From: Mugil cephalus
Taxonomy: Eukaryota > Chordata > Actinopteri > Mugiliformes > Mugilidae
Direction of reading: 5' to 3'
NCBI RefSeq assembly: GCF_022458985.1
Contig: NC_061776.1
Coordinates: 4,820,088-4,884,087 of the forward strand
DNA: 64,000 bases
Part shown: positions 20,870 through 56,345 of the stretch, in pieces
Layout: the number at the start of each line of letters is the position of its first letter
Position numbering within the stretch: the stretch's first letter is position 1
Program-made: the position numbers and the translations under genes
Notes under the pieces: generated by a model
Told to the model about the DNA's origin: nothing
Databases searched by the model: none
What the model saw: only the letters and a program-made list of their open reading frames with translations

Positions 20870-21416
20870 CATGGAAATAAAAGGCATCATGGGCAGTGAT
20901 ATCCTCCATGGCTAAACTGGTGAAACATCAAGAGAACAACCATAAACCTCTTACCATTCTAGCCTTTTTGCAAAAAACTGCTGTTCGGGGAGTAAATTGA
21001 ACACTGTTGTTGAACATTTTGGAGCTCATTCATGGTCTTGGTCTCTTTTGAAAGCCAAGACTCTGAAGTTTCTATCACAAAGAATCAGAATCACTCTAAG
21101 TGATATTGTTTTTGAAAATCAAAGTTGGCACACAGTTAAAAAATTAGAAGTTTTGGGTTCGCCTGAATTTATTTATTTTTTGATATCTGATGTCAACTGT
21201 GTTGGTTGAATCCTATAATGGCTTTTATCAATGAAATGAGAAGAAAAATAGCTATCCAACAGCAAATTACACGCAGCATTTACCAAACACAACTTGTGTA
21301 CAGAGCTCTGATTTGTTCAAAAAGCTGCTGCTGTCCCATATACGACCCAGGAGAATGTTAAAAGGTTAAACATGTCCAGGTAGCAGCCAACAAAATACCT
21401 CTGAAGTTATCTCTGT
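20870..21416 (-). other. 3' UTR region of TRIM gene T1, split by a TTAA element
   Basis: The segments 20,870-20,946 and 21,366-21,416 match the 3' UTR shared by T3, T4 and T6 (cagtgatatcctcca, aaacatgtcaaggtagcagcc). Between them lies a mobile element listed separately. In the other genes the two parts join at ctattaaacatg, which supplies the TTAA target. Confidence 0.75.
20947..21365 (-). mobile_element. TTAA-type element in the T1 3' UTR
   Basis: About 419 bp, with inverted ends: cctcttaccattct at the left and, reverse complemented, ccttttaacattct at the right. The right flank is TTAA (21,366-21,369); the left flank is a mutated TAAA (20,943-20,946). The insert splits a 3' UTR that is continuous in sister genes. 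Its interior matches 28,375-28,927 and 32,421-32,765, including the marker ctgtcccatatacgaccc. Non-coding, piggyBac-like by its target site. Confidence 0.75.
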
Positions 21417-23072
21417 CTACATCACTTTTATCAACTCAGCTCTTGATCCGAAACCAATCCAGATTCCAGCATAGAGCGGCTGAGTGAATGTGGTCTGGAC
21501 TCTGTGGAGGAGAGTCATGGTTTCAGAGACGCTGTAGAAGGATAGAATACCTGCCCTGTGATCCAGGTACACTCCTACTCTGAGAGAACCACGACCTGAG
21601 ACGGGAGTTTGGATGTTGTTGTTCACAAATGTAGAACTGAAACAATCTAATGTCCAAGATGTGTCATTATTTCCAAACCTACTTTCCCTCCCTGATCTGC
21701 TGATATTCTTGTATGTGACTGCTACATCAACTCTTCTTCTCCACTTCACCTCCCAGTAACAACGTCCAGTCAGACTCTCTCTACTCAGGACCTGCCAACA
21801 ATCAGTGAATCTCTCTGGATGATCAGGATAAGACTGTTGTTGATTCACTGATGTTACTCTTCTGTTTCCCTCAGTCAGTACCAGTCGTCTGTGTGCTGTG
21901 TTTGGATCCAGTGTGATTTCACATGAATACTTTAAGAATTCATCTCTGGTCTTTGGCTCTGGTTGTGGCAGTAAAACATCCACTTCAGCCACTGTCAGTG
22001 AGATGTTAGTCCATGTCTCTCTCAGAATGTCCTGTAGTTTTTTTCTGAGCTCTGTCACAGCTACTTTCACGTCATCAAAGTTCCTCCGAGGACGGATATT
22101 GATGCTGGATGAGTGTGTAGATTGACTGAGTGGTGACAGTGAGGGGTAGTTGCGTAGAAACTGGTTGTGATCCTCTGTGTCTGAGAGCTGCTTCAGCTCA
22201 GCGTCTTCCCTCTTCAGCTCAGTGATCTCTTGCTCCAGCTTCTCCTGAACCTCTTTGACTCGACTCTCTTCAGTTTCCTGCTGGGATCTGACCTGCTGCT
22301 CCACATCAGAGCTTCTTTCCTGGAGGAGACAGATCATCTCAGTGAACATCTCCCGACTGTCCTTCACTGTTTTATCAGCAGAGTGAGCGATGGCCTTCAG
22401 CTCCTGTTGTAACAGCTTCACATCTTTCTCTTTGTCCTGGATCATCTGCTGGATGTTTTGTCGTCTCACCTCCACCTCTCTCTGCCTCTCAGTCCTTTCT
22501 GCTGCAGCTGAGACTGTGTCGTGGCCTTTATGTTCCTCCACAGAGCAGAGATAACAGATACTCTGCTGATCAGTACGACAGAACATCTTTATCACCTCAT
22601 TATGACGAGAGCAGATGTTCTCCTGGAGCTTCTTGGAGGGATCCACCAGCTTGTGTTTCTTTAAAGGAGGTGCATCATAATGAGGTTGAAGGTGTTTCTC
22701 ACAGTAAGATGCCAGACAGAATAAACAGGACTTGAAGGCTTTCAGTTTTCTTCCAGTGCAGAAATCACAGGCCACATCTTCAGGTCCAGCATAGCAGTGA
22801 TCAGCAGGAGCAGCTTGGAGTCCAGTCTTCTTCAGCTGCTCCACTAAAACTGCTAACTTGGTGCTTTTCACCAGGACAGGCCTCGATGTGAAGAGTTGTC
22901 TGCACTCAGGACATCTGTGGATTTGTTTCTTGTCCTCTTCATCAAAGTGGCTTTTAATACAGTTCATACAGTAGCTGTGTCCACAGGGAATAGTCACCGG
23001 ATCCTTCAGTAAATCCAGACAGATGGAACAGCTGATTGTTTCTTCATCTAACTCAACTCCCTTGTCAGCCAT
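21417..23072 (-). CDS. TRIM gene T1, finTRIM/TRIM16-like E3 ubiquitin ligase
   Basis: 551 residues in one open exon. RING C3HC4 (C15, C18, C30, H32, C35, C38, C54, C57); B-box 1 (C102, C105, C116, C119, C124, with H127/H131); B-box 2 (C154, H157, C165, D168, C173, C176, H181, H184); coiled coil about 187-305; PRY about 375-430 (ITLDPNTAHRRLVL); SPRY 431-551 (CYWEVKW, VGVYLDHRAGILSFYS). All zinc ligands are present, so it should be an active RING E3. The start MADKGVELDEE is fixed by homology with T6. The family is fish-specific or fish-expanded and linked to antiviral immunity; substrates are unknown. The stop codon is displaced by one codon change (VKVM end instead of VKVK). The upstream block is type A. 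Confidence 0.93.
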   Translation of the reverse strand: MADKGVELDEETISCSICLDLLKDPVTIPCGHSYCMNCIKSHFDEEDKKQIHRCPECRQLFTSRPVLVKSTKLAVLVEQLKKTGLQAAPADHCYAGPEDVACDFCTGRKLKAFKSCLFCLASYCEKHLQPHYDAPPLKKHKLVDPSKKLQENICSRHNEVIKMFCRTDQQSICYLCSVEEHKGHDTVSAAAERTERQREVEVRRQNIQQMIQDKEKDVKLLQQELKAIAHSADKTVKDSREMFTEMICLLQERSSDVEQQVRSQQETEESRVKEVQEKLEQEITELKREDAELKQLSDTEDHNQFLRNYPSLSPLSQSTHSSSINIRPRRNFDDVKVAVTELRKKLQDILRETWTNISLTVAEVDVLLPQPEPKTRDEFLKYSCEITLDPNTAHRRLVLTEGNRRVTSVNQQQSYPDHPERFTDCWQVLSRESLTGRCYWEVKWRRRVDVAVTYKNISRSGRESRFGNNDTSWTLDCFSSTFVNNNIQTPVSGRGSLRVGVYLDHRAGILSFYSVSETMTLLHRVQTTFTQPLYAGIWIGFGSRAELIKVM

Positions 23073-26749: not shown

Positions 26750-27510
26750 ACAAAAGTCGATCCAAGATTACCTGGTTGGATAATCATTGCTAAGACACAG
26801 ACTGTACATGGAACATGCACTTCTCCGCCTTAACAAAGAGCTCGTTCTCCAGAAGGTGGCAGAATACTCAGGGTCCTTGGAAAAGATGAGGGTGTCATCA
26901 AGATGGACAAATACAAAGCGAGGATTGGAGATCTGAGGGTGGGTCGCGGGCAGCTAGCTGGTCTTGAAGCTGGTCGTTGAGTCCTTTGACAAACACTACT
27001 TGCAGAGCCTCCTCATTCCAGCCCACATCCACACTCAAGGTCCAAAACTCCACAGAATAGTCCACCACCAACCAGGGCCCTTGCCGCTGTCCCAGTAAAT
27101 GGCTAGAGGCGTTGCCGGCAAAAGATTAAAAATGTTCCACAAAATCTTTAAATGGGAATGAACTCAGAGCGCGACTGGGGTTTACTGCCTCAGCCTGTGC
27201 TAGTGCCCTGCACTGGAGAAGTCATATAAACGATCTTAGCATCATGAGCGAAGATCTGGGCTTTTTGCTGAAAAACCAAATCCCAATGAAGCAAAAAACC
27301 ACAGCACTTGTCCAGCTAACTGTGAAAAATCTGGATCTGGAATTCAAACATCCGTACAGTGAGGGACGCCCATTCAGCCAGCCGCCAAGACGTCTCTGTT
27401 GCCGGGCGAGTTAAATTCAGATTATCATACAATGTTCTGATTATTTGATCGTGTTGGCCAAGGAGTGTGCCCTGGCCAGGGCGTGGCTCACTGGGTCTGC
27501 TTGGTCCATG
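26750..27510 (-). pseudogene. Degraded Ty3/Gypsy-type gag with fused RT scrap
   Basis: Starting at an ATG near 27,510 the minus strand reads a gag-like N-terminus (MDQADPVSHALARAH) and further down, in shifting frames, gag-like segments (WNEEALQVVFVKGLNDQL near 26,990). This runs almost directly into an RT motif near 26,900 (FVHLDDTLIFSKD, the catalytic LDD motif). Stops, frameshifts and a large internal deletion between gag and RT make it a dead retroelement. The sequence 27,511-27,760 upstream may be its leader. Confidence 0.65.
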
Positions 27511-27760
27511 TTGGCCAGATCGTTCTGTTCAGGAGGTGGATGCCGAACGTGGCATACAGATTCAAACAGACAAAAGGTTGATCAAGCAAATGTCAAAGAG
27601 ACAAGTGTTACAATGGTGTGATCTACAATCGGGTGAAGAGTGGATGGGGAACCCGGTCCTTTATGCTCCACAGGCGCACTTGGTTGGGATGAGCTGCAGG
27701 TGTGTGAGACTGTAGTTCAGGAAGTAGGTCAGCTCCGCCTGCCTAAGATTGACAGAGAAA

Positions 27761-28190
27761 AAGGCAAAAACACAAACACAAACTGTATAGCCTAGAGTTT
27801 CAGGACAAAAATTGTATCACATACACTCTCATATTATTTTGCCATTTTTTCCATCGGCATTTGGAGAAATTACGGAAAGGAAAACCAAAGAAAATAATCG
27901 TTAATGAAAAACCGTTTTATTTAATATTTTAATCAACAAATTGTTCACACATCCAACAATTTCATGTACACATTCACTTAAGCCATACAATCTACCTGTT
28001 TATCATGATAAATAAAATTTTAATAACCCTCATGGTACCTCATGTATATGTAGATGTTAATATATAGTCTAAAAAACTAATAGATGTAAATGTAATCATA
28101 GATTTCTTTAACATATCGGTGAGAAAGGAAGGTCTGCTGATTCCTCCTATGAACTGCAAGAACACAGAAATTTATCAGTACAAATATTCA
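27761..28190. other. Non-coding stretch, partly TRIM 3' flank
   Basis: From about 27,955 onward it matches the T3 distal 3' flank near 37,090-37,280 (acctcatgta, aaactaata). No gene is seen. Confidence 0.5.
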
Positions 28191-28194
28191 GCAG

Positions 28195-28374
28195 ACATTT
28201 AGAGCTCAGAAAATTTTAGAAAACAAAAGCCATCATGAGCAGTGATATCCTCCATGGCTAAACAGACACAGGAAAGAGCTCCACCTAAAGAAAGTGATGA
28301 AACATCCAGAGAACAACTATTAAACATGTCAAGGTAGCAGCCATGATGTTTGACTGACAGCTGATCATTCTCTA
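28195..28374 (-). other. T2 3' UTR remnant
   Basis: Matches the 3' UTR of T3, T4 and T6 (catttagagctcag, gtgatatcctcca, gtcaaggtagcagccatgat) up to gacagctgatc. It is then cut off by the TTAA-type element, so the last stretch of normal 3' UTR and stop codon is missing. Confidence 0.7.
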
Positions 28375-28927
28375 TGGGACAACAGTACCTTTTTGAGTCA
28401 ATCGGAGCTTTGTACACAACTTGTGTTGGAGTAAATGTTGCATGCAATACGTAATTTTATTCTGATTTAATTGACAAAAGTCATTATAGGATTCAACCAA
28501 GACATTCTTTAAAAACAAACATACAAACAAAAAATAAGCCAAACCCACCACCTTCTTGTTATTTTAAATGTGGGCCAACTTTGATTGCTCAAAAACAATA
28601 CAACCTACACTGCTTCTGACTTTTGTAACACAAACTTCAGAGTCTTGGCTTTCAAAGAATACCAAGGCCATGCATGAGATCCAAAATGTCCATGAACACC
28701 ATTCAATGTCATTTTCTTCTGATTTCATTGATAAAAGTCATTACAGGATTCAACCAACACATTTTTTCAAAACAACAACAACAACAAAAAAAAAATCAGC
28801 CAAACCCACCAACTTCTTATTTCAAAGACTGTGCATGAGATCCAAAATGTTCATGACCAGTATTCAATTTACTTTGGGTATGTCCTAAATAGACGTTTTT
28901 TTGGAAAAAGACTTGAGTGATGAGATG
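28375..28927 (+). mobile_element. TTAA-type element at the 3' end of T2
   Basis: Shares long segments with 32,421-32,765 and, inverted, with 20,947-21,365 (gggacaacagtaccttttt, caaacttcagagtcttggct). Its interior includes a partial tandem duplication (catgagatccaaaatgt at 28,673 and 28,837). The right side abuts TTAA at 28,928-28,931, which lies inside the final codons of T2. The left end is truncated and the right terminal inverted repeat is not clear, so boundaries are approximate. Confidence 0.6.
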
Positions 28928-30594
28928 TTAATCAACTCAGCACTTGATCCATTAAAGCAATCACCAATCCTGAGTCCAGCATAGAGCGGCTGAGTGAATG
29001 TGGTCTGGACTCTGTGGAGGAGAGTCATGGTTTCAGAGACGCTGTAGAAGGACAGAATACCTGCTCTGTGATCCAGGAACACTCCTACTCTGGAGGAAGG
29101 AGGAGCAGAGACGGGAGTTTGGATGTTGTTGTACCAAAATGTAGAGCTGTCATTTGAACGATATAATGTCCAAGATTTGTCATTACGTCCAAATCTACTT
29201 TCATTCCCTGCTCTTCTGATATTCTTGTATGTGACTGCTACACCAACTAATCCTCTCCACTCCACCTCCCAGTAACAACGTCCAGTCAGACTCTCTCTAC
29301 TCAGGACCTGAAGACGATCAGTGAATCTGTCTGGATGATCAGGATAAGACTGCTGTTGTCGATTCCCTGGTGTTATTTTTCTGTTCCTCTCAAACAATAC
29401 CAGACGTTTGTGTATTGTGTTTGGATCCAGTGTGATTTCACGTGAATACTTTAAGAATTCATCTCTGGTCTTTGGCTCTGGTTGTGGCAGTAAAACATCC
29501 ACTTCAGTCACTGTCAGTGAGATGTTTGTCCTTGTCTCTCTCAGAATGTCCTCCACTTTCTTTCTGAGCTCTGTCACAGCTATTTTCACGTCTTCAAAGT
29601 TCCTCCGAGGACAGATATTGATGCTGGATGAGTGTGTAGATTGACTGGGTGGTGGCAGTGAGGGGTAGTTGTGTAGAAACTGGTTGTGATCCTCTGTGTC
29701 TGAGAGCTGCTTCAGCTCAGCGTCTTCCCTCTTCAGCTCAGTGATCTCCTGCTCCATCTTCTCCTCAACCTCTTTGACTCGACTCTCTTCAGTTTCCTGC
29801 TGGGATCTGACCTGCTGCTCCACATCAAGGCTTCTTTCCTGGAGGAGATGGATCATCTCAGTGAACATCTCCCGACTGTCCTTCACTGTTTTATCAGCAG
29901 AGTGAGCGATGGCCTTCAGCTCCTGTTGAAGCAGCTCCACATCTTTCTCTTTGTCCTGGATCATCTGCTGGATGTTTTGTCGTCTCACCTCCACCTCTCT
30001 CTGCCTCTCAGTCCTTTCTGCTGCAGCTGAGACTGTGTCGTGGCCTTTATGTTCATCCACAGGGCAGAGATAACAGATACTCTGCTGATCAGTACGACAG
30101 AACATCTTCATCACCTCTTCATGACGAGAGCAGATGTTCTCCTGGAGCTTCTCAGAGGGATCCACCAGCTTGTGTTTCTTTAAAGGAGCTGCATCATAAT
30201 GAGGCTGAAGGTGTTTCTCACAGTAAGATGCCAGACAGACTAAACAGGACTTGAAGGCTTTCAGTTTTCTTCCAGTGCAGACATCACAGGCCACATCTTC
30301 AGGTCCAGCATAGCACTGATCTGCAGGAGCAGCTTGAAGTCCAGTCTTCTTCAGCTGCTCCACTAAAACTGCTAACTTGGTGCTTTTCACCAGGACAGGC
30401 CTCGATGGGAAAAGTTGTTTGCACTCAGGACAGCTGTGGGTTTGTTTCTTCTTGTCCTCTCCATCAAAGTGTCTTTTAATACAGTTCATGCAGTAGCTGT
30501 GTCCACAGGGAATAGTCACCGGATCCTTCAGTAGGTCCAGACAGATGGAACAGCTGATTGTTTCTCGATCCAGTTCAACTCCTTTCTGAGCCAT
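28885..30594 (-). CDS. TRIM gene T2, finTRIM/TRIM16-like, with altered C-terminus
   Basis: 569 residues in one open exon, the longest of the array. RING C3HC4 from C15 to C58 (one extra Lys/Gln residue in the loop, CPECKQLF), B-boxes about 100-187, coiled coil about 188-307, PRY about 378-435 (ITLDPNTIHKRLVL), SPRY to about 556. It reads normally to AELI, but instead of KVK and a stop it continues for 14 different residues ending KKTSI. The change occurs exactly at a TTAA, next to mobile-element sequence, so the tail is probably element-derived. All zinc ligands are intact. The start MAQKGVELDRE has a good context (gcagagATGg). The upstream block is type B. Function by family: RING E3 ligase, probably immune. 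Confidence 0.92.
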   Translation of the reverse strand: MAQKGVELDRETISCSICLDLLKDPVTIPCGHSYCMNCIKRHFDGEDKKKQTHSCPECKQLFPSRPVLVKSTKLAVLVEQLKKTGLQAAPADQCYAGPEDVACDVCTGRKLKAFKSCLVCLASYCEKHLQPHYDAAPLKKHKLVDPSEKLQENICSRHEEVMKMFCRTDQQSICYLCPVDEHKGHDTVSAAAERTERQREVEVRRQNIQQMIQDKEKDVELLQQELKAIAHSADKTVKDSREMFTEMIHLLQERSLDVEQQVRSQQETEESRVKEVEEKMEQEITELKREDAELKQLSDTEDHNQFLHNYPSLPPPSQSTHSSSINICPRRNFEDVKIAVTELRKKVEDILRETRTNISLTVTEVDVLLPQPEPKTRDEFLKYSREITLDPNTIHKRLVLFERNRKITPGNRQQQSYPDHPDRFTDRLQVLSRESLTGRCYWEVEWRGLVGVAVTYKNIRRAGNESRFGRNDKSWTLYRSNDSSTFWYNNIQTPVSAPPSSRVGVFLDHRAGILSFYSVSETMTLLHRVQTTFTQPLYAGLRIGDCFNGSSAELINISSLKSFSKKTSI

Positions 30595-30720
30595 CTCTGC
30601 TCTCCAAACAGTGTCAGTGACAAGAACTTGTGTCCTTTGAAGAACTTACAGTTGAACAATGTGTGTTTGAGGAAGAAGTGAGAGGCGTCACCAGACTCTT
30701 TTTCTCTTAAGAGGAGTGAC
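30595..30720 (-). promoter_or_regulatory. 5' UTR of T2 with upstream acceptor
   Basis: The minus strand reads gattatttcag then GTCACTCC at 30,720, an acceptor conserved in T3 (39,445) and T5 (55,631). This suggests a spliced 5' UTR in all type B genes. Confidence 0.5.
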
Positions 30721-31140
30721 CTGAAATAATCTGAGTAATAAACTATAAAACAATGAAACATAACGACTTTGAAATCCATTTTATTAAAGTTACAGAGATA
30801 ATAACAGTACAAAGTACAAATCATTAAACTTACAACTTAACAACTTGATAGACTTTGACTAAGAGTCTGATGTGTTAGTTGTTTAAAAGGCCTCTGTTGA
30901 GCTTTCTCAAGAGTAGTGTCAGCACTGAGACAACTTCAGTAACTCTCTAAGTGTGGAATGTTTCTTTTGAAAAAAAAAAGAAATCAGTGTCTGACATTCA
31001 TCTCCTAGTTTTGTGTTGTGTGAATCTGAAAATGAATCTGAATTCACTGGTTCTTTAAAACATTACATTATAGAATGAGATTAACTGTGTTAAGGCGTAT
31101 GAAAGGTGAACTGTAGTGCAGAAAACAGACAAACTATTAA
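30721..31140 (-). other. T2 upstream flank
   Basis: Non-coding. The segment 30,855-31,010 matches 41,700-41,850 (gtcagcactga, ggatgtttcttttga), and 31,060-31,130 matches 32,775-32,845 in the ghost unit. Confidence 0.55.
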
Positions 31141-31620
31141 ACTGAGTTGACTTTTCAAAAGGACAGTGGAGTCCCTTCAAAGTGGTTTGCCAGAATAAAC
31201 CCAACTGGATGGATGAGTGAGGTCAAGAGGAAGGACAAGTGGCCTGATGACCAAAGAGCTGCAGTTCACAAGGAGGTCAAGAAGCAAGATGAAGTTTTTC
31301 ATGTTATCAATCTGGACATAACCCAGACTAACAACCAGTATCAGGATCAGCTGAATCTGGACCAAGGTTGTTGCTACTTGACAGACGAAGGATCATGGGT
31401 TTGTTGACGTCCAGAGGAATTGTGCTGGGAGGAAGAATCAGACAAGAAACTGTTGTCTACTGAGTGAGAAGACAGGTTAAGGGACTGAGGACTAGCAGTC
31501 TGAGAGGTGACTGACTCTAGGGTAGGTCTAATGGGAACAAGAACCACCCCACTCCTGTAATCAATCAAACACACCAGAGAGAGAGAGGCTGTGGGCAAAG
31601 AGGAAGGTAGAAGCAGAGGG
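31141..31620 (+). repeat. Repeated module M, copy 1, with an 86-codon open frame
   Basis: The open frame 31,147-31,407 begins MTFQKDSGVPSKWF and includes a charged stretch (KRKDKWPDDQRAAVHKEVKK). Related sequence occurs at 32,845-33,230 and, more diverged, at 41,850-42,290, where frames are broken. I do not recognise a protein family. All three copies lie upstream of TRIM units, so the simplest reading is a piece of duplicated flank, perhaps once an exon or element. Confidence 0.5.
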
Positions 31621-32340
31621 AATGAAATCTGGAGGTGTTCCTATCCAGTAACCTTGTCTACTGGATTTTATGACCACATGAATGACTCTTCCTTAGTGTC
31701 TCATGTCTCCAATAGGCTCCAGTTACCTGTCTTACAAGATAATCAATGTTGTTAATGTTTATAAGCTGTGCTGCAACTTTTTATTCATATATCCAACATT
31801 GTTTTCAAGATTCAAATGATTTCTCACATTTGTTCAGCTGCTCAGGATCTCTCATGAACCATTTCACTGGTCGATACATAACAATGGAATTAGTGAAGAT
31901 ATAAACTGTCTTATCAGATATTGAATATGAGCTAAACATTAACCACAGACACTACAAAGTCCTCTCGGTCTTTCATAAACAAATGTTTTCCTCTCATGTC
32001 TCACGAATAAGAGGCATCACATGATTGAGTTAAGAAGTCACATTGTACATTGCTGTGTTTCTTTATATTCAAAACTATGTGTTTAAAAGCACAGGTCATG
32101 TTACTGAAACTGTTCATGTGTAGTTGGTGAATCCACAGCTGACTCTTTATGCAGCTGACTTCTCTATGCAGGTGCAAGTGCTCATTAATGTGTAAATCGA
32201 ATTACCCCATCATGACCCCAGGATGTTGGAAGTGTAAAACAGACTTCTACAAGTTCTTTAAAATGCCTTTATTAACTAATTACAAATCAAAATCTGACAA
32301 AATCAACACAATCATTCAGCTTAACCAAGAAAATGATGAA
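31621..32340. other. Non-coding duplicated flank
   Basis: 31,660-32,150 aligns with 42,340-42,820 upstream of T3 (shared gttcagctgctcagg / gttcagctgttcagg, ctgctgtgtttcttt-like segments and ggtgaatccacagctga). No gene is seen. Confidence 0.6.
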
Positions 32341-32420
32341 TGAATGAAAACAAGTTGATGAAGAGAAACATAGGATTTAACTCTCTGGTCCTGAAGTTAC
32401 CTCTGTCTACTTCACTTTAA
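32341..32420 (-). pseudogene. Ghost TRIM unit: 3' end only
   Basis: Matches the end of the TRIM transcript unit (aacaagttgatgaagagaaa, ctctggtcctgaagttacc, then the last codons ctacttcacttta read in reverse). It stops at TTAA (32,417-32,420), the same place where T2 is interrupted. No coding body follows; the next sequence is element and then TRIM upstream flank. Confidence 0.7.
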
Positions 32421-32765
32421 CCCTTTCCGCTGGGTCGTATATGGGACAGCAGTAACTTTTTGAGCCAATCAGAGCTTTGAATACAACTTGTGATTGAGTA
32501 AATGTTGCATGCAATACATAATTTTCTTCTGATTTCATTGATAATGATAGTCAATAATTGATAGTCATTATAGGATTCAACCAAGACATTCTTTCAAAAC
32601 TAAGAAAAAACAAAAAAAATAAGCCCAACCCACCGACTTAATATTATTTTAAATGTGTGCCAACTTTGATTGCTCAAAAACAATACCACTTACACTGCTT
32701 CTGACTTTTGTAACACAAACTTCAGAGTCTTGGCTTTCAAAAAATACCAAGACCATGCAAGAGAC
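32421..32765 (+). mobile_element. TTAA-type element in the ghost TRIM unit
   Basis: Begins ccctttccgctgggtcgtat directly after TTAA and shares its body with 28,375-28,860 and 20,947-21,365. The right end is lost at the deletion junction near 32,765. Confidence 0.65.
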
Positions 32766-33230
32766 ACGGTATTATAGGATGAGATTAACTGTGTTATGGT
32801 GTAGGAGAGGTGAAAAGTAGTGCAAACAACAGATTAACTGATTTGACTTTTCTAAAGGACAGAGTTCCTTCAAAGTAGTTTACCAGAATAAACCCAGCTT
32901 GATGGGTGAATGAAGTGAAGAGGAGGGACTGGTGGCCTGATGACCGAAGGGCTAAGGTTGACAAGGAGGTCAAGAAGCCAGGTGGAGCCATTCAGGCGGT
33001 CAATCTGGAGATAACCCAGCTACTTACGACAAGGCTCAGGATCATCTGACTCTGGGCCAAAGTTGAGATTGAGGAAGGACCATGGGTTTGATAAAGTCCT
33101 GAGGAATTGTGCCATGAGGAACAATCAGACAAGAAACTGTCTACTGAATGAGATGGCGAGTTAAGGTCTGATGACTAGCAGTCTGAGATGTGACTGACTC
33201 CAAGGTAGGTCTAATGAGAACAAGACCAGG
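32766..33230 (+). repeat. Ghost TRIM unit upstream flank with module M, copy 2
   Basis: Matches 31,062-31,560 (gagattaactgtgtta, accagaataaacccagct, gactagcagtctgagatgtg), the sequence that lies upstream of T2. Frames homologous to the 86-codon frame are broken. Confidence 0.65.
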
Positions 33231-33299
33231 ACCCTGGTAGAAATGAGGAGGTGAGGCAGTCAAGAGCCACGGAGAGGCTAGCCTTGACCAGCAGAGTAC

Positions 33300-34130
33300 A
33301 GAGCCCGAGTTGTTGGTGGAGGCATCAGATGAGGCTCTTTCCAGCCTGGGACATGGAGTTCAGTCACTCTCTAACCATCTACAAGCCTTGGCTGCTCAGA
33401 TTAACCAGATCATGACTCGCCTTGACTCCATGACTCCAGCAGCACCTGGTCCCACTGACGTAGCTCCTTCAGCTCCTAATCCAGCATACCTAGCACCTCC
33501 TCTTCCTGATTCAGATCCCAGGGTATCCTGCATTGAGAGGTATGATTGCTGGGACAAATCACACTTTTTCAACTCGGTGTCCTTTGACTTTTGAGCTACA
33601 AACTGCAACCTTTGCAATAGAATTCTCCAGGATGGTGTATATGGATGCTAACCTCACAGGCAGAGCATGAGAATAGACTCAGAGCACTCATAAAACTGTT
33701 ACTCTGTGGCAGCTTTTTCTGCTGCTTTGACCAGTGTCTTTGGGCAATTGACCACAAGCCATGAGGCTGCACATGTACTTGGTAGTCTCAGTCAAGGCAG
33801 AAACCACATTTTTGACCACGCCACCTGTTTCTGCACACTAGCAGCCGAGAGTTGATGGAACAATGAGGCTCTGGCCAATATGTTTTACTTCAGGCTTTCA
33901 GAGACCATAAAGGATTGTTTTGTCAACATTGATCTACCCAGGGGTTTTGTGGCCTTGGTGGAACTTGCTATCAAGTTCGACAACCGGCCTTTGGAACCTA
34001 GGATCATCATCGCTGGAGGCAGTTTTGCACTGCTGAGCCAATTTTGGTCAGAACCCCTCTTAGATCCCAATTGCCTAACCCAGGGTTGTTTCCTTCATCA
34101 TCTGAGGTCAACCTGCAGAGTTGAGACACA
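33300..34130 (+). pseudogene. Degraded Ty3/Gypsy-type gag
   Basis: Opens with ASDEALSSLGHGVQSLSNHL and a proline/alanine-rich stretch leading to DPRVSCIERYD (33,322-33,545), then after stops and shifts shows SLSQGRNH near 33,790 and MFYFRLSETIKDC and GFVALVELAIKFDNR (33,880-33,995). These are in the order expected of fish Gypsy gag proteins. Several stops and at least one frameshift make it inactive. No zinc knuckle or pol follows; the next recognisable sequence is a LINE. Confidence 0.65.
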
Positions 34131-36660: not shown

Positions 36661-37289
36661 AAATAAGTCATGTTTATTATTAATAATAGTAAATGACTGT
36701 AAAACATTTGTTAAAAGAAAAACATCACACCTGTTAAACTTTTATTTATTTATATTTTTTGCTGAAAGTGTGTATCCAGACAGATTCAGATTGAAGCCGC
36801 ATTTTATTTTCATTTGATAGTTGTAAAGGTGTTTACACTGACATGAAATCAAATTCACTGTCATCAACATGAACTCCCTGCTAACAATCAGTTTAGATAA
36901 AAGAGTTAAAGCTGCCGGGGGAGCTACAGAAGAGTAAAAACCACAGAAAATGTCCACAGCAAGTCCTTCTAGAAATTTGATATTTGCTCCTTTCACATTC
37001 ATTCATTCTCTCCACTACGTCCCTGTCAGCAGGACGGAGGCGCCCTCTTGTGTTAACGATCAGTTTTCATCCCTCTGATATGAAGTCCAATCAACTTGTT
37101 AAATCCAGGAAATAAATGATCAATCGTCATGTTGATTACAATTTTAATAAACCTCACAGTACCTCATGTATAAGTAGTGGTTAATATATAGTCTGAAAAA
37201 CTAATACATGCAAATGGAATCATAGATTTCATTCTGTGCAAAGTCATCAACAGCATGTCAGTGATAGAGGAAGGTCAGCTGATTCCTCT
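36661..37289. other. Non-coding stretch leading to T3
   Basis: No gene is seen. From about 37,090 it becomes TRIM distal 3' flank shared with 27,955-28,190. Confidence 0.55.
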
Positions 37290-37638
37290 GATAAGAAGTG
37301 GAAGAGAAACAACAACAACACAAATACATCAATACAAATATTCATCAGACATTTAGAGCTCAGACAAGTTTAGTTGTCATGGAAATAAAAATCATCATGA
37401 GCAGTGATATCCTCCACGGCTAAACAGACTCAAGAATGAGCTCCACCTGAAGACAGTGATGAAACATCCAGAGAACAACTATTAAACATGTCAAGGTAGC
37501 AGCCATGATGTTTGACTGACAGCTGATCTCTGAGCAGAAACACCACAACAATGATCATTCAGCAACAAACATGGAGAGAAAACAAGTTGATGAAGAGAAA
37601 CACAGGATTTAACTCTCTGGTCCTGAAGTTACCTCTGT
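37290..37638 (-). other. 3' UTR of T3
   Basis: Shared with T4 (44,610-44,905), the SPRY pseudogene (51,740-51,971) and T6 (59,220-59,520). Markers are gtgatatcctccacgg, tgatgaaacatccagag, gtcaaggtagcagccatgat and gcagaaacaccacaacaatg. Its conservation across paralogues reflects recent duplication. Confidence 0.7.
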
Positions 37639-39324
37639 CTACTTCACTTTAATCAACTCAGCACTTGAACCAATAAAGTATATATCATTAAACCAATCAC
37701 TAATCCTAAGTCCAGCATGGAGCGGCTGAGTGAATGTGGTCTGGACTCTGTGGAGGAGAGTCATGGTTTCAGAGACGCTGTAGAAGGATAGAATACCTGC
37801 TCCGTGATCCAGGTACACTCCTACTCTGGAGGAAGGACGACCTGAGATGGGAGTTTGGATCTTGTTGCTCACACATTTATATTTGACTTTGCAACAATCC
37901 AGTGCCCAGGATTTGTCATTGCGTCCAAATCTACTTCCATTGCCTACTCTGCTGATATCCTTGTATGTGACTGCTACACCAACTCCTCGTCCTCTCCACT
38001 CCACCTCCCAGTAACAACGTCCAGTCAGACTCTCTCTACTCAGGACCTGAGGACAATCAGTGAATCTGTCTGGATGATCAGGATAAGACTGTTGTTTCAC
38101 TAATGTTACTTTTCTGTTTCCCTCAGTCAGTACCAGATTTCTGTGTGCTGTGTTTGGATCCAATGTGATTTGACATGAATATTTCAAGAATTCATCTCTG
38201 GTCTTTGGCTCTGGTTGTGACAGTAAAACATCCACTTCAGTCACTGTCAGTGAGATGTCTGTCCTTGTCTCTCTCAGAATGTCCTGTAATATTGCTCTGA
38301 GCTCTGTCACAGCTGCTTTCACATCTTTAAAGATCCTCAGAGGACGGATATTGATGCTGGATGAGTGTGTAGATTGATTGAGTGGTGACAGTGAGGGGTA
38401 GTTGTGTTGAAACTGGTTGTGATCCTCTATGTCTGAGAGCTGCTTCAGCTCAGCATCTTCCCTCTTCAGCTCAGTGATCTCCTGCTGCAGCTTCTCCTGA
38501 ACCTCTTTGACTTGACTCTCTTCAGTTTCCTGCTGGGATCTGACCTGCTGCTCCACATCAGAGCTTCTTTCCTGGAGGAGACGGATCATCTCAGTGAACA
38601 TCTCCTGACTGTCCTTCACTGTTTTATCAGCAGAGTGAGCGATGGCCTTCAGCTCCTGTTGAAGCAGCTTCACATCTTTCTCTTTGTCCTGGATCATCTG
38701 CTGGATGTTTTGTCGTCTCACCTCCACCTCTCTCTGCGTCTCAGTTCTTTCTGCTGCAGCTGAGACTGTGTCGTGGCCTTTATGTTCATCCACAGAGCAG
38801 AGATAACAGATACTCTGCTGATCAGTACGACAGAACATCTTCATCACCTCATCATGACGAGAGCAGATGTTCTCCTGGAGCTTCTTGGAGGGATCCATCA
38901 GCTTGTGTTTCTTTAAAGGAGCTGCATCATAATGAGGCTGAAGGTGTTTCTTACAGTAAGATGCCAGACAAAATGAACAGGACTTGAAGGCTTTCAGTTT
39001 TCTTCCAGAGCAGACATCACAGGCCACATCTTCAGGTCCAGCATAGCAGTGATCAGCAGGAGCAGCTTGGAGTCCAGTCTTCTTCAGCTGCTCCACTAAA
39101 ACTGCTAACATGGTGCTTTTCACCAGGACAGGCCTCAATGGGAAGAGTTGTCTGCATGTAGGACAGCTGAAGATTTTCTTCTTTTCAACTTCATCAAAGT
39201 GTCTTTTAATACAGTTCATGCAGTAGCTGTGTCCACAGGGAATAGTCACTGGATCCTTAAGTAGATCCAGACAGATGGAACAAGAAAAGGTTTCTCGATC
39301 CAGTTCAATTACTTTCTGAGCCAT
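37639..39324 (-). CDS. TRIM gene T3, finTRIM/TRIM16-like E3 ubiquitin ligase
   Basis: 561 residues, single coding exon. RING C3HC4 C15-C57 with a distinct loop (DEVEKKKIFSCPTC), B-boxes about 100-187 with all ligands, coiled coil about 187-305, PRY about 376-430 (ITLDPNTAHRNLVL), SPRY to 561 (CYWEVEW, VGVYLDHGAGILSFYS). It differs from its sisters by an insertion in the last SPRY strand (DWFNDIYFIGSS) and by a variable loop (CCKVKYKCVSNKIQ) richer in Cys/Lys. Start context gagATGg; MAQKVIELDRETFSC aligns with T5. The upstream block is type B and nearly identical to that of T5. Confidence 0.93.
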   Translation of the reverse strand: MAQKVIELDRETFSCSICLDLLKDPVTIPCGHSYCMNCIKRHFDEVEKKKIFSCPTCRQLFPLRPVLVKSTMLAVLVEQLKKTGLQAAPADHCYAGPEDVACDVCSGRKLKAFKSCSFCLASYCKKHLQPHYDAAPLKKHKLMDPSKKLQENICSRHDEVMKMFCRTDQQSICYLCSVDEHKGHDTVSAAAERTETQREVEVRRQNIQQMIQDKEKDVKLLQQELKAIAHSADKTVKDSQEMFTEMIRLLQERSSDVEQQVRSQQETEESQVKEVQEKLQQEITELKREDAELKQLSDIEDHNQFQHNYPSLSPLNQSTHSSSINIRPLRIFKDVKAAVTELRAILQDILRETRTDISLTVTEVDVLLSQPEPKTRDEFLKYSCQITLDPNTAHRNLVLTEGNRKVTLVKQQSYPDHPDRFTDCPQVLSRESLTGRCYWEVEWRGRGVGVAVTYKDISRVGNGSRFGRNDKSWALDCCKVKYKCVSNKIQTPISGRPSSRVGVYLDHGAGILSFYSVSETMTLLHRVQTTFTQPLHAGLRISDWFNDIYFIGSSAELIKVK

Positions 39325-44905: not shown

Positions 44906-46576
44906 CTACTTCACTTTAATCAACTCAGCACTGGATCCAACAAACCAACCACCAATCCTGAGTCCAGCATAGAGCGGCTGAGTGAATGTGGTCTGGACTC
45001 TGTGAAGGAGAGTCATGGTTTCAGAGACGCTGTAGAAGGACAGAATACCTGCTCTGTGATCCAGGTACACTCCTACTCGGGAGGAAGGACGACCTGAGAC
45101 AGAAGTTTGGATGTTGTTGTACCAAAATTTAGAACTGTCATTTGAACGGTATAATGTCCAAGATTTGTCATTACGTCCAAAACCACTTTCATTCCCTGCT
45201 CTGTTGATATTCTTGTATGTGACTGCTACACCAACTCCTCCACTCCACTCCACCTCCCAGTAACAACGTCGAGTCAGACTCTCTCTACTCAGGACCTGAA
45301 GACAATCAGTGAATCTGTCTGGATGATCAGGATAAGACTGAGGTTGATTCACTAGTGTTATTTTACTGTTCCCCTCAGACAGTACCAGATCTCTTTTTGC
45401 TGTGTTTGGATCCAGTGTGATTTCACATGAATACCTTAAGAATTCATCTCTGGTCTTTGGCTCTGCTGGGGGCAGTAAAACATCCACTTCAGTCACTGTC
45501 AGTGAGATGTTTGTCCTCGTCTTTCTCAGAATGTCCTCTAGTTTCTTTCTGAGCTCTGTCACAGCTGCTTTGACGTCCTCAAAGTACCTCAGAGGACGGA
45601 TATGAATGCTGGATGAGTGTGTAGATTGACTGAGTGGTGACAGTGAGGGGTAGTTGTGTAGAAACTGGTTATGATCCTCTATGTCTGAGAGCTGCTTCAG
45701 CTCAGCGTCTTCCCTCTTCAGCTCAGTGATCTCCTGCTCCAGCTTCTCCTGAACCTCTTTGACTCGACTCTCTTCAGTTTCCTGCTGGGATCTGACCTGC
45801 TGCTCCACATCAGAGCTTCTTTCCTGGAGGAGACGGATCATCTCAGTGAACATCTCCTGACTGTCCTTCACTGTTTTATCAGCAGAGTGAGCGATGGCCT
45901 TCAGCTCCTGTTGAAACAGCTTCACATCTTTCTCTTTGTCCAGCATCATCTGCTGGATGTTTTGTCGTCTCACCTCCACCTCTCTCTGCCTCTCAGTCCT
46001 TTCTGCTGCAGCTGAGACTGTGTTGTGGCCTTTATGTTCATCCACAGGGCAGAGATAACAGATACTCTGCTGATCAGTACGACAGAACATCTTCATCACC
46101 TCATCATGACGAGAGCAGATGTTCTCCTGGAGCTTCTTGGAGGGATCCACCAGCTTGTGTTTCTTTAAAGCAGCTACATCATAATGAGGTTCAAGGTGTT
46201 TCTCACAGTAAGATGCCAGACAGACTAAACAGGACTTGAAGGCTTTCAGTTTTCTTCCAGTGCAGAAATCACAGGTCACATCTTCAGGTCCAGCATAGCA
46301 GTGATCAGCAGGAGCAGCTTGGAGTCCAGTCTTCTTCAGCTGCTCCACTAAAACTGCTAACATGGTGCTTTTCACCAGGACAGGCCTCGATGGGAAGAGT
46401 TGTCTGCACTCAGGACAGCTGTGGGTTTTCTTCTTGTCCTCTCCATCCAAGTGGCTTTTAATACAGTTCATGCAGTAGCTGTGTCCACAGGGAATAGTCA
46501 CCGGATCCTTCAGTAAATCCAGACAGACGGAACAAGAAAAGGTTTCTCGATCCAGTTCAACTCCTTTCTGTGCCAT
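44906..46576 (-). CDS. TRIM gene T4, finTRIM/TRIM16-like E3 ubiquitin ligase
   Basis: 556 residues, single coding exon. RING C15-C57 (CSVCLDLL), B-boxes about 100-187, coiled coil about 187-305, PRY about 376-430 (ITLDPNTAKRDLVL), SPRY to 556 (WEVEWSGGVGVAVTYKNIN; SSKFWYNNIQTSVS). All metal ligands are kept. It combines a type A upstream block with an N-terminus (LDRETFSC) like the type B genes T3 and T5, a hint of recombination near the start. It shares the SPRY loop (YRSNDSSxFWYNN) with T2. Expected role: RING E3 of the antiviral finTRIM-like class. Confidence 0.93.
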   Translation of the reverse strand: MAQKGVELDRETFSCSVCLDLLKDPVTIPCGHSYCMNCIKSHLDGEDKKKTHSCPECRQLFPSRPVLVKSTMLAVLVEQLKKTGLQAAPADHCYAGPEDVTCDFCTGRKLKAFKSCLVCLASYCEKHLEPHYDVAALKKHKLVDPSKKLQENICSRHDEVMKMFCRTDQQSICYLCPVDEHKGHNTVSAAAERTERQREVEVRRQNIQQMMLDKEKDVKLFQQELKAIAHSADKTVKDSQEMFTEMIRLLQERSSDVEQQVRSQQETEESRVKEVQEKLEQEITELKREDAELKQLSDIEDHNQFLHNYPSLSPLSQSTHSSSIHIRPLRYFEDVKAAVTELRKKLEDILRKTRTNISLTVTEVDVLLPPAEPKTRDEFLRYSCEITLDPNTAKRDLVLSEGNSKITLVNQPQSYPDHPDRFTDCLQVLSRESLTRRCYWEVEWSGGVGVAVTYKNINRAGNESGFGRNDKSWTLYRSNDSSKFWYNNIQTSVSGRPSSRVGVYLDHRAGILSFYSVSETMTLLHRVQTTFTQPLYAGLRIGGWFVGSSAELIKVK

Positions 46577-46990: not shown

Positions 46991-47123
<133 letters not shown>

Positions 47124-50930: not shown

Positions 50931-51971
50931 ACCTGTTCATTTAGCATTGATGAGCAACATGTAGTTTATTAAATGGTTTATCACACACTACAGTTTAGTT
51001 GAAAGCAGATATGAAGACATTTGATGAGTGGTTTGGTTTTGGAATTTAAAATTGTAAAATGTGACTTTTTGTAATTACTACACTTACAGCTAGTGTATTA
51101 TTTTCATTCTTTTTAAATACAATAAACTGGGCTTTGTTCATGCCAAAAATTTCATGTTATTGTCTCTCAACACCCAAGAAGAACATCCTCGTCTACCATC
51201 CACATGTCCTTTGTAAACCACCCCCACCCCCACCCATACTGAAGTTTTCATCAATCACTGGCGTCTTGGAGAAGGAGGAGTACATAAACTCTGTACGTGT
51301 TTCAGGAAATAAGACGGTGTCTCAGTTATACTCTCATTAACTTCACTGTATTTTCTCCATCAGATTCTAGTGAGATCCTGGAATGAAGACACAAGTCAAT
51401 ATTTCATTTCCTCTTGGTGAAAACCTTTTATTCATTATTTAAACCTTCAGGTTGTTCACACATTAAACTGGTTAAACATCAGCACACGAAGAAAAAACTA
51501 TCATTTGATCAATAGTCACCATGATGATTCCAGTTTTATGAATTAGTACAAATCTCTACTGCAACGTAACAACGACAACCAAACACATTAATTTAAATGT
51601 AATCATAGATTTCTTTCTGTACAAAGTGATCAACAACATATTAGTGATAGAGGAAGGTCTGCTGGTTCCTCTGATATGAAGTACAAGAGAAACAACAACA
51701 ACACAAACACATCAATACAAATATTCATCAGACATTTAGAGCTCAGACAAGTTTACATTGTCATGGAAATAAAAGTCATCATGAGCAGTGATATCCTCCA
51801 CGGCTAAACAGACACAGGAAAGAGCTCCACCTAGAGGAAGTGATGAAACATCCTGCTGATCTCTGAGCAGAAACACCACAACAATGAACACTCAGCAACA
51901 AACATGGAGAGAAAACAAGTTGATGAAGAGAAACACAGGATTCAACTCTCTGGTCCTGAAGTTACCTCTGT
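50931..51971 (-). repeat. Distal flank and 3' UTR of the SPRY pseudogene
   Basis: Aligns with 43,915-44,905 (T4) over about 1 kb, including the shared 3' UTR with a 35-bp or longer deletion before ctgatctctgagcag. The candidate AATAAA is preserved near 51,427. Confidence 0.7.
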
Positions 51972-52393
51972 CTACTTCACTTTAACCAACTCAGCACTTG
52001 ATCTATCAAAAATCAAACCGAACCAATCACCAATCCTGAGTCCAGCATAGAGCGGCTGAGTGAATGTGGTCTGGACTCTGTGGAAGAGAGTCATGGTTTC
52101 AGAGACGCTGTAGAAGGATAGAATACCTGCTCTGTGATCCAGGTACAATCCTACTCTGGAGGAAGGAGGAGCTGAGACGGGAGTTTGGATGTTGTTGTAA
52201 CAAAATGTAGAACTGTTATTTGAACAATCTAATGTCCAAGATTTGTCATTACGTCCAAATCCACTTTCATTCCCTGCTCTGATGATATTCTTGTATGTGA
52301 TTGTTACACCAACTCTTCCTCCCCTCTCCACCTCCCAGTAACAACGTCCAGTCAGACTCTCTCTACTCAGGACCTGAAGACAATCAGTGAATC
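51972..52393 (-). pseudogene. Truncated TRIM pseudogene (SPRY only)
   Basis: The frame 51,972-52,331 encodes the SPRY domain end (VTITYKNIIRAGNESGFG, FCYNNIQTPVS, VGLYLDHRAGILSFYS, AELVKVK and stop). Homology continues upstream without its own start (CYWEVE, LQVLSRESLTG) until 52,393, where it stops abruptly within the codons for FTD. RING, B-boxes, coiled coil and PRY are absent. The sequence beyond matches the far upstream flank of T4, so about 2.1 kb has been deleted relative to T4. Confidence 0.88.
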
Positions 52394-53280
52394 AGTAATT
52401 AACCATTTCTATGATTTCACAGAATTTGTACACAACCAGAGGATTTAAAAACAAAACAAAAAAAACACCAAGTGTTATTCTCAGCTTTCTCTAGCAGAGG
52501 GTACTCCAGGACCATTCTTAGAAACAGCTTCAAAGCCTTTCTTCAGACCAAACCCATCCAGATCTCCACTGCCCTTCCGTTCGTTTTCACATACTCACCA
52601 TCTACGATGAAATTATTTAGAGCAATTAAAAACTACTTTGAGGCCATTATGAAAAACCAACCCCACAATGACCTCACAATGAATTTAACAACAGCCAGGG
52701 GCTTTCTTTGACAAAGGTCTCCTATTTGACACAACATTTATTGGCGAGCCAGCCAGGAGAGCAAAGATCGGACAGAGAATGATCATCGCCAGGAGGGACT
52801 TCACAGACTTCACTGCACACTGTGTGTGTGTGTGTGTGTGGTCTTTTTCAGGGGAAAACAGGAAATCACCCCCCCTACAGCTTGAGTAGTATTATCATTG
52901 AGTTCAGTTGGGATGACACTCTGTTGACGTGAAGCCGTAACCCTATATAAACGGAGAAGCTGTCTTACCTGTTACCTGTGGGGATCTAACACTGGTCACA
53001 TCGAGGGTCAAACCAGGAGCTGACCTGAAAGCTGGTTCACACAGTGGTTGTTTCAAACAATGAAGATGGAATAATGACGCAAACAAGCAAAGGGTGTTTG
53101 GATAATATGGGAGCAGGCTGGATGCCTCGTGCACTGATTCCACCCAAAACCCCTTCTCCTAACCCTAACACTAGCATAACAAGTTTCACCATGCATTTAC
53201 TGCAGGAATATAGAGGATAGGTTTTAGTAGTAGTTTAAGCCAAGGAACAAGAAAAAAAAGTACATGGAACATTACTTTCT
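52394..53280. repeat. Upstream flank joined to the SPRY pseudogene
   Basis: 52,535-52,690 and 52,990-53,225 align with 47,400-47,530 and 47,585-47,815. Between them, 52,700-52,985 is not in the T4 flank; it contains attggcgagccagccaggag, a (TG)n run (52,823-52,840) and a tatataaa box at about 52,944, which could be a small LTR/leader fragment of a retroelement. Confidence 0.6.
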
Positions 53281-53826: not shown

Positions 53827-55509
53827 CTACTTCACTTTAATCAACTCAGCACTTGTTCTAGCTAACCGACCACCAAGAGAAAAATAAATCCCAAGTCCAG
53901 CATAGAGCGGCTGAGTGAATGTGGTCTGGACTCTGTGGAGGAGAGTCATGGTTTCAGAGATGCTGTAGAAGGACAGAATACCTGCTCTGTGATCCAGGTA
54001 CACTCCTACTCTGGGGGAAGGAGGAGCAGAGACGGGAGTTTGGATGTTGTTGTACCAAAATGTAGAACCGTCATTTGAATGATATAATGTCCAAGATTTA
54101 TCATTACGTCCAAATGCACTTTCATTCCCTGCTCTTCTGATGTTCTTGTATGTGACTGCTACATCAACTCTTCCTCTCCGCTCCACCTCCCAGTAACAAC
54201 GTCCAGTCAGACTCTCTCTACTCAGGACCTGCCAACAACCAGTGAATCTGTCTGGATGATCAGGATAAGACTGTTGTTGAAACTTAAACATTACTTTTCT
54301 GCTCTTCTCAGACAGTACCAGATCTCTGTTTACTGTGTTTGGATCCAGTATGATTTCACATGAATACCTTAAGAATTCATCTCTGGTCTTTGGCTCTGGT
54401 TGTGGCTGTAAAACATCCACTTCAGTCACTGTCATTGAGATGTTTGTCCTTGTCTCTCTCAGAATGTCCTCTAGTTTCTTTCTGAGCTCTGTCACAGCTG
54501 CTTTCACGTCATCAAAGTACCTCAGAGGACAGGTATTGATGCTGGATGAGTGTGTAGATTGACAGAGTGGTGACAGTGAGGGGTAGTTGTGTAGAATCTG
54601 GTTGTGATCCTCTGTGTCTGAGAGCTGCTTCAGCTCAGCATCTTCCCTCTTCAGCTCAGTGATCTCCTGCTCTAGCTTCTCCTGAACCTCTTTGACTCGA
54701 CTCTCTTCAGTTTCCTGCTGGGATCTGACCTGCTGCTCCACATCAGAGCTTCTTCCCTGCAGGAGACGGATCATCTCAGTGAACATCTCCTGACAGTCTT
54801 TTACTGTTTTATCAGCAGAGTGAGCGATGGCCTTCAGCTCCTGTCGAAGCAGCTTCACATCTTTCTCTTTATCCTGGATCATCTGCTGGATGTTTTGTCG
54901 TCTCACCTCCACCTCTCTCTGCCTCTCAGTCCTTTCTGCTGCAGCTGAGACTGTGTCGTGGCCTTTATGTTCATCCACAGAGCAGAGATAACAGATACTC
55001 TGCTGATCAGTACGACAGAACATCTTCATCACCTCATCATGATGAGAGCAGATGTTCTCCTGGAGTTTCTTGGAGGGATCCACCAGCTTGTGTTTCTTTA
55101 AAGGAGCTGCATAATAATGAGGCTGAAGGTGTTTCTTACAGTAAGCTGCCAGACAAACTGAACAGTACTTGAAGGCTTTCAGTTTTCTTCCAGTGCAGAC
55201 ATCACAGGCCACATCTTCAGGTCCAGCATAGCAGTGATCAGCAGGAGCAGTTTCGAGTCCAGTCTTCTTCAGCTGCTCCACTAAAGCTGCTAACATGGTG
55301 CTTTTCACCAGGACAGGCCTCGACATGAAGAGTTGTCTGCACTCAGGACAGCTGTGGGTTTTCTTCTTGTCCTCTCCATCAAAGTGTCTTTTAATACAGT
55401 TCATGCAGTAGCTGTGTCCACAGGGAACAGTCACTGGATCCTTCAGTAGATCCAGACAGATGGAACAAGAAAAGGTTTCTCGATCCAGTTCAATTCCTTT
55501 CTGAGCCAT
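53827..55509 (-). CDS. TRIM gene T5, finTRIM/TRIM16-like E3 ubiquitin ligase
   Basis: 560 residues from the ATG at 55,509. RING C15-C57, B-boxes about 100-187 (here AAYCKKHLQPHY and ICSHHDEV), coiled coil about 187-305, PRY about 376-430 (IILDPNTVNRDLVL), SPRY to 560 (RRGRVDVAVTYKNIRRAG; SSTFWYNN-like loop with GSTFWYNN). It has a longer last loop (GIYFSLGGRLARTSAEL). The frame stays open to 55,647, but those 46 extra residues lie in what is 5' UTR in T2 and T3 and cross a conserved splice acceptor at 55,631, so the conserved MAQKGIELDRE start is preferred. The upstream block is type B, nearly identical to that of T3. Confidence 0.93.
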   Translation of the reverse strand: MAQKGIELDRETFSCSICLDLLKDPVTVPCGHSYCMNCIKRHFDGEDKKKTHSCPECRQLFMSRPVLVKSTMLAALVEQLKKTGLETAPADHCYAGPEDVACDVCTGRKLKAFKYCSVCLAAYCKKHLQPHYYAAPLKKHKLVDPSKKLQENICSHHDEVMKMFCRTDQQSICYLCSVDEHKGHDTVSAAAERTERQREVEVRRQNIQQMIQDKEKDVKLLRQELKAIAHSADKTVKDCQEMFTEMIRLLQGRSSDVEQQVRSQQETEESRVKEVQEKLEQEITELKREDAELKQLSDTEDHNQILHNYPSLSPLCQSTHSSSINTCPLRYFDDVKAAVTELRKKLEDILRETRTNISMTVTEVDVLQPQPEPKTRDEFLRYSCEIILDPNTVNRDLVLSEKSRKVMFKFQQQSYPDHPDRFTGCWQVLSRESLTGRCYWEVERRGRVDVAVTYKNIRRAGNESAFGRNDKSWTLYHSNDGSTFWYNNIQTPVSAPPSPRVGVYLDHRAGILSFYSISETMTLLHRVQTTFTQPLYAGLGIYFSLGGRLARTSAELIKVK

Positions 55510-56345
55510 CTCTGCTCTCAGTGTCAGTGATGTACAGCTCGTATCCTTTGAAGAATTTACAGATGAATAATGTGTTTTTGAGGAAGAAGCGAGCAGTGTC
55601 ACCAGACTGTCTTTCTTGGAAGTGGAGTGACCTGAAAACAGAGTCATAAACTATAAAACAATAAAACACAACGACTTGGAAAGACATTCTATTTACCTTA
55701 CAGAGAAAAAAAAAAAAAAAAAAACAGTACAAAGTACAAATAAGATGACAATTAAACCTGCACATTTCCTTGATAACAAAAAATTAGTACGAGGCTAACA
55801 ATATATTTAGCTCAACTCACCAACTTAAGTTGTGTCAACAGATTTCAGACTCAGTATAGACCCCTACATGGCCTATGTCCATGTGACATCACAGCGTTGG
55901 CAGGAGGCAAAACAGCTTCAATAACGATTTTAGCAGGAACTTCTGACAGCTGGTGGATATCTGGAGTCAGTAAGAAAGTGACTGTTAACCTTCATACTGG
56001 TCATTAACTTAAGTATCCGACAGCAAACTTGTTACTAACCTGCAGCTGCTCTGCTCTGCTCCGTGCATCAGCCCCCATTTATTTTACCAAGAGCATGTCT
56101 GCTTCCTGTAAATACCGGAGTTATCCAGGTGATTGGCTATGTGCTAGTCACATGGTTTACCTCAGGTTTGTCAGACCAATGCCCACTGCCATATTGTGCC
56201 TGATTAATTTTCTATGTTGACGACATCTGTATAAGACGGAGAGACAGTGATACATGGAAACAACTTCAATTATTGGCTGTGTCCACGTTTACTACCTTCA
56301 ACTTTATATTGCCCCTTAAAATCCACAAAGCATCTGCCCCAACTT
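55510..56345 (-). repeat. Type B upstream block of T5
   Basis: Near-identical to 39,325-40,190. It has the conserved acceptor (ctgttttcag then GTCACTCC at 55,631) and donor (GCAG then GTTAGTAAC at 56,040-56,031), with a likely non-coding first exon above 56,040. A 20-bp poly-A stretch lies at about 55,706-55,724. Confidence 0.75.

Follow-up and report, generated by a model that had tools for sequence, protein, structure and literature searches.

TRIM proteins can have their C-terminal portion altered by mobile-element activity, as illustrated by the primate TRIM-cyclophilin fusions. In TRIMCyp, a functional binding domain stands in place of the B30.2 domain. A related event has been described in fish: an isoform of Per2 in the cavefish Phreatichthys andruzzii carries a transposon-derived C-terminal sequence and ends early, according to the available portion of that report (PMC5993827). 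Short elements that use TTAA sites have their own literature. The hallmarks listed for piggyBac/TTAA MITEs in the accessible part of a study of coral elements are TTAA duplications and terminal inverted repeats (TIRs) of 12-19 bp with a CC[C/T]T end (PMC2872659), and CCCTT is given as the most conserved end motif in the section seen of a second paper (PMC10813416). Here we describe a fish TRIM gene, T2, whose last predicted residues and stop codon derive from a piggyBac-like element of this kind. The gene lies in a 64,000-nucleotide stretch of Mugil cephalus DNA (G000:C7:4820088-4884087), called the window below; the assembly searched comprised 634.8 Mb in 24 contigs.

T2 and the ends of its paralogues

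The window carries an array of six tandem TRIM genes of the antiviral type, each consisting of a single ORF and all on the minus strand. According to the ORF list, full TRIM frames are found at 21417-23072 (T1), 37639-39324 (T3), 44906-46576 (T4), 53827-55647 (T5) and 59521-61176 (T6), and T2 is an open frame of 569 aa at 28885-30594. With T2 as the reference, the coding regions of T1 and T3-T6 were 0.79-0.99 alike per 150-bp bin (21417-61176), and similarity in the 5' flanks dropped to background level within ~300 bp of the start. The RING (zf-C3HC4_4, residues 15-58), B-box (zf-B_box, 151-189), coiled coil (TRIM_CC, 212-352) and PRY-SPRY (PRY, 387-435; SPRY, 439-539) of T2 all scored above the Pfam cut-offs, which makes it a member of the TRIM / PRY-SPRY family. 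Among solved domains, its PRY-SPRY was closest to those of TRIM16-like and TRIM16, then to the stonustoxin subunits, which share the PRY-SPRY-type domain with T2, and then to TRIM25.

Some further features of the array were recorded. In T5, the first in-frame ATG lies 46 codons 5' of the family start MAQKG, and the other five genes begin MAQK or MADK; the upstream ATG is likely an annotation trap. A perfect ATCT microsatellite of 33 copies occupies 46991-47123. The Rfam scan of 27001-34000 gave no match at gathering thresholds, and at E 0.001 Pfam matched none of the three short plus-strand ORFs at 10866, 57226 and 62849.

The motif AELI near the C-terminus is invariant across all six TRIM proteins. 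After it, T3-T6 end in KVK-TAG and T1 in KVM-TAG, and T2 runs on through NISSLKSFSKKTSI to a TAG. An earlier note on this DNA, made from the sequence alone, had assigned a V-K-type tail followed by TAG to the five other genes and to a SPRY pseudogene; this description fits T3-T6 and the pseudogene, whose end reads AELVKVK-TAG, and misses T1, which has VM and not VK. The note had also placed a switch in T2 immediately after AELI, at the TTAA at 28928-28931, to 14 unrelated residues and a stop, and the comparison with the paralogues bore this out. In the paralogues, the equivalent of this right junction is a TTAA spanning two of the last codons, ATT AAA (Ile-Lys). It is unfilled in 5/6 of the other gene copies; T1, in which a base change to GATAAAA has abolished the TTAA, is also element-free. 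The SPRY pseudogene itself (51960-52400) retains a SPRY frame that is open past an upstream stop, with the KVK-TAG end and an unfilled TTAA.

The homology between T2 and T3 is interrupted on both sides of the T2 end. On the ORF side it ends at the TTAA at 28928-28931 and on the 3'-flank side at 28366, so that the 120 bp of T3 that hold the stop codon and the proximal UTR (37529-37648) are replaced in T2 by 561 bp (28367-28927). Beyond this stretch, the distal 3' flank of T2 (28003-28366, minus strand) is homologous to T3 37127-37528, with 80.1% identity over 402 aligned columns. The core PRY-SPRY domain of T2 is likely unaffected by the new tail, which begins at residue 556, beyond the last residue of the Pfam SPRY match (539, profile position 104 of 121). 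Structure prediction (AlphaFold) with T2 and the five paralogues gave a mean pLDDT of 44.6, residues 533-569 being below 50; a model of this quality was uninformative on the tail and was therefore not used for fold searches.

The TTAA element and the source of the tail

The DNA inserted in T2 is a dispersed repeat: from 1188 and 1345 first-look candidates, 40 of each were scored, and these yielded 45 and 40 matches. Our consensus was built from 29 distinct copies outside the window (38 loci, minus 3 window copies and 6 duplicates); these were picked by their likeness to the window copies, and the consensus may favour one subfamily. It is 417 bp long and bounded by a TTAA on each side; its two ends, TTAACCCTTTAACATTCC and TTAACCTCTTATCATTCC, are imperfect inverted repeats. 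The left TIR is CCCTTTAACATTCC and the right one CCTCTTATCATTCC, with 3 mismatches in 14 positions; the left fits the CC[C/T]T motif, and the right starts with CCTC, which is one base off. When the ends of the 17 copies reaching both termini were extrapolated without gaps, an exact TTAA was present on the left in 8, on the right in 12 and on both sides in 5. Duplication of a TTAA target site is supported by the consensus ends, the genomic copies and the unfilled paralogue sites.

The element is short, non-coding and present in many copies. Frames read inward from both ends stop within 20 codons, and its 417 bp would leave no room for a transposase. We regard it as a piggyBac-like non-autonomous MITE, the TTAA by itself being no proof of that; Kolobok elements likewise use TTAA sites. 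Within the available part of their description, the coral CMITEs share with this element the TTAA at both ends, the shortness and the many copies, and their short imperfect TIR with a CCCT start is matched by its left end; the element described here differs from them in its 417 bp and in the consensus right TIR, which begins with CCTC (PMC2872659). No match to the T2 protein was found at E 0.001 in the ~1500-base flanks of the 29 loci outside the window, and a text search of the papers available found no mention of the four element-end sequences.

In T2, blastn of the consensus against the window located a rearranged copy at 28373-28931, on the plus strand, with the left 29 bp missing. Its segments correspond to element positions 30-352 (28373-28705), 106-209 (28706-28822) and 311-417 (28825-28931). 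Two stretches within it, 28441-28560 and 28700-28821, are direct copies of one another and 84% alike; the simplest reading is a duplication of element positions 106-352 followed by loss of 210-310 in the second unit. At 28367-28372 lies the deletion junction, equivalent to T3 37529-37648, where T2 lost the left end of the element and, from the gene, its former stop codon with ~110 bp of the adjoining proximal 3' UTR. The right TIR in T2 had been called unclear in the earlier note. In fact the right end is present, the last 60 consensus bases aligning with T2 at 53/60 positions without gaps, and the end that is missing is the left one.

This right terminus is what encodes the tail. The 14 codons NISSLKSFSKKTSI and the TAG stop occupy 28885-28929 on the minus strand, and the first of them, AAC, combines the AA of the TTAA with the first element base. 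In the T2 frame, the consensus translates to ELI-NLLSFQPFCKKTPI-stop and T2 itself to ELI-NISSLKSFSKKTSI-stop, with the same frame, length and stop. The coding end of T2 therefore lies within element sequence and uses the stop codon of the element, as a TE-derived C-terminus does. The tail itself appears to show no sign of constraint, because the seven base differences from the consensus all fall inside the 14 codons and all change residues; depending on the source copy of the T2 element, some of the seven changes may be older than the insertion. Nor is the length of the tail special, since the open stretch in the T2 frame spans 2 to at least 34 residues among 20 genomic right ends, the T1 copy included (at least 34 residues in 3/20, exactly 14 in 2/20). 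The T2 element also contains an AATAAA, 424 bases past the T2 stop. This is not distinctive, since T1 and T3-T6 carry AATAAA or ATTAAA too, the first at 240-549 bases past the stop.

The ghost unit, the T1 copy and the order of events

The earlier note had recognised that the repeat in T2 recurs in the T1 3' UTR and in a remnant called the ghost unit, and blastn with the consensus confirmed both copies (21369-20945 and 32415-32763). The T1 copy (20945-21369, minus strand) is near full length, covering element positions 1-415 at 83.6%. It has the opposite orientation relative to its gene and was grouped apart from the T2 and ghost copies in the element tree; it is an independent insertion.

The ghost retains a family stop codon and proximal 3' UTR (32346-32420, minus strand; 98.7% to T3 37578-37652) ending in a TTAA at 32417-32420. 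The left part of the MITE follows, at 32415-32763 on the plus strand (element positions 7-325, by blastn and sequence), with ~6 bp missing just within the left end, up to a junction with a 5' flank shared with T2. This flank (32771-33225, plus strand) and that of T2 (31067-31542) are homologous, with 79.3% identity when gaps are counted and 379/453 identical ungapped positions; the coding region, expected between the element and the flank, is deleted. The unit at 32346-33225 is a sister of T2 in which a deletion from the MITE interior to the 5' flank took the coding region. The two copies are interrupted at the same target codon, the left junction being kept in the ghost and the right one in T2.

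Taken together, these observations very probably reflect the insertion of a MITE into the last codons of a gene ancestral to both T2 and the ghost, followed by a duplication and then by separate deletions. The 417-bp element would have entered the TTAA of ATT AAA, the last Ile and Lys codons. The gene frame, antisense to the element, would then have run into its right terminus and gained 14 residues and an in-frame TAG, with the loss to the protein limited to the final three residues (K-V-K) and the rest intact. Duplication of the locus would have produced T2 and the ghost. In the ghost, a deletion from the element interior to the 5' flank would have removed the coding region; T2 would have lost the left end of the element, the old stop codon and the proximal 3' UTR, and its element interior would have been rearranged. 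The earlier note had proposed that a TTAA-type element entered the last codons, and this holds on four grounds: a consensus with two TTAA ends, the unfilled TTAA of the paralogues, the left junction in the ghost and a tail encoded by the right end of the element. That T2 and the ghost share one insertion, and that T2 later lost the left end with the old stop, goes beyond the note. Some points count against this history. T2 itself lacks the left junction, and the target site duplication had to be assembled from two paralogous copies. The one-base misfit of the right TIR, the use of TTAA by Kolobok elements and the possible lean of the consensus towards one subfamily also weigh against it. Moreover, the neutral divergence between T2 and the ghost, computed by hand as 0.11-0.18 (element ~0.11; 5' flank, from the 379/453 positions, ~0.18 by Jukes-Cantor), is not below the dS of 0.08-0.12 between the T2 and paralogue CDS. 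A coding dS at or below the neutral divergence points to gene conversion, slower coding change or uneven rates, and gene conversion among the array genes is possible.

These considerations bear on what T2 has become. Having lost its native end to the insertion, it may be turning into a pseudogene, with a frame that is open because the loss is recent or because gene conversion refreshed it; we hold this as a tentative and somewhat doubtful possibility. In support of it, dN/dS between T2 and the five paralogues was 0.74-0.92 (NG86) or 0.88-1.24 (YN00), and the private changes of T2 (24 nonsynonymous to 7 synonymous, or 3.4) gave the highest ratio of the six genes, ahead of T1 (25:8, 3.1), T5 (24:8, 3.0), T3 (31:12, 2.6), T6 (29:16, 1.8) and T4 (16:10, 1.6). 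Long concordant runs also connect T2 with T5, T6 and T3 (permutation p 0.008, 0.0115 and 0.026, uncorrected); across the array 6/15 pairs gave p values of 0.0045-0.026, likewise uncorrected, a hint of gene conversion. On the other side, the 569 codons contain neither stop nor frameshift, all four domains are recognisable at the Pfam cut-offs given above, and the T2 ratio is near those of T1 and T5, so rapid evolution of the coding sequence may be typical of the whole family. We considered whether the open frame argues for selection on T2. In neutral simulations of the T2 frame, with substitutions only and no indels, 23% of the frames were stop-free at 0.02 substitutions/site, 6.6% at 0.04, 1.5% at 0.06 and 0.5% at 0.08; the divergence on the T2 side suggested by the element is ~0.08. 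The branch length left after possible conversion corresponds to d = 0.02-0.04, at which 6.6-23% of frames stay open by chance. This weakens the neutral-frame argument and speaks for the pseudogene reading, and we therefore make no claim that selection kept T2 open; its open frame is weak evidence of function.

A second alternative concerns the number of insertions, namely that members of the same MITE family independently entered the equivalent TTAA in T2 and in the ghost. The family is abundant, TTAA is its target and T1 has a separate insertion within the same array, all of which would make a repeated hit conceivable. The two elements are 89.4% identical over 302 ungapped columns, and three other pairs, all with the copy L013, are slightly closer. 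The element tree nevertheless rejects a second independent insertion: T2 and the ghost have 24 derived changes in common, against 13 for the runner-up among 496 pairs, and they group together with a support of 1.000. They also have the same orientation and a 5' flank common to both, and we consider two insertions highly improbable. The 24 shared derived changes argue for one insertion, older than the duplication. That the new end arose by frameshift or by a point-mutated stop in ordinary 3' UTR, with no mobile element involved, has next to no probability: a stop is soon reached in any AT-rich sequence and nothing else favours the idea, which is refuted by the breaks in T2-T3 homology, by the position of the paralogue 3' UTR elsewhere in T2 and by the ungapped alignment of the tail DNA with the end of a repeat that is dispersed in the genome.

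Returning to a single insertion before duplication, we consider established, at the level of sequence, the insertion, its target site, the source of the tail and stop, the single origin and the order of insertion and duplication. T2 is presumably transcribed and translated, and the tail may then be a usable "exonised" product; it would be a tolerated, mostly neutral replacement and not a selected new part.

Meaning of the T2 tail and comparison with known systems

Class I PDZ ligands follow the pattern [S/T]-x-hydrophobic at the C-terminus, and roughly 1/20 C-termini fit it by chance, judging from residue frequencies. Both the T-S-I at the end of the T2 protein and the T-P-I at that of the element consensus fit this pattern. 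A working PDZ-type motif could bring a new partner or location in one step, and we think it very unlikely that the tail acts in this way.

In T2, a fast-evolving gene of immune type has received both its final codons and its stop from a mobile element, with no splicing involved. The insertion can be dated before a later duplication, and both of its junctions are recoverable from two sister copies. TRIM arrays may be able to try new C-termini cheaply, as a TTAA in the final codons and an early stop in the element spare the domain. There is also a warning for annotation: the tail of T2 and the usual end of the family are not homologous.

Compared with TRIMCyp, T2 has kept its B30.2 domain and only a short tail has changed. 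Among the matches listed in literature searches on fish TTAA MITEs, TE-derived C-termini, and TRIM arrays with TEs, the titles and the beginnings of abstracts held no comparable case. The teleost finTRIM and the TRIM16- and TRIM25-like genes resemble the T2 array in being tandem, quickly diverging and B30.2-bearing, and in the part of the finTRIM paper that was available no mobile-element C-terminus was found (PMC2657112). The cavefish Per2 isoform, like T2, is a fish protein with transposon sequence in its C-terminal part. As far as the available portion of that report goes, its insertion is intronic, acts through aberrant splicing and costs the protein its Cry-binding domain, whereas T2 is read directly through into the element at its final codons and loses about three residues (PMC5993827). 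TE-derived C-termini were already known, and T2 is a further instance of them, a clear but ordinary event.
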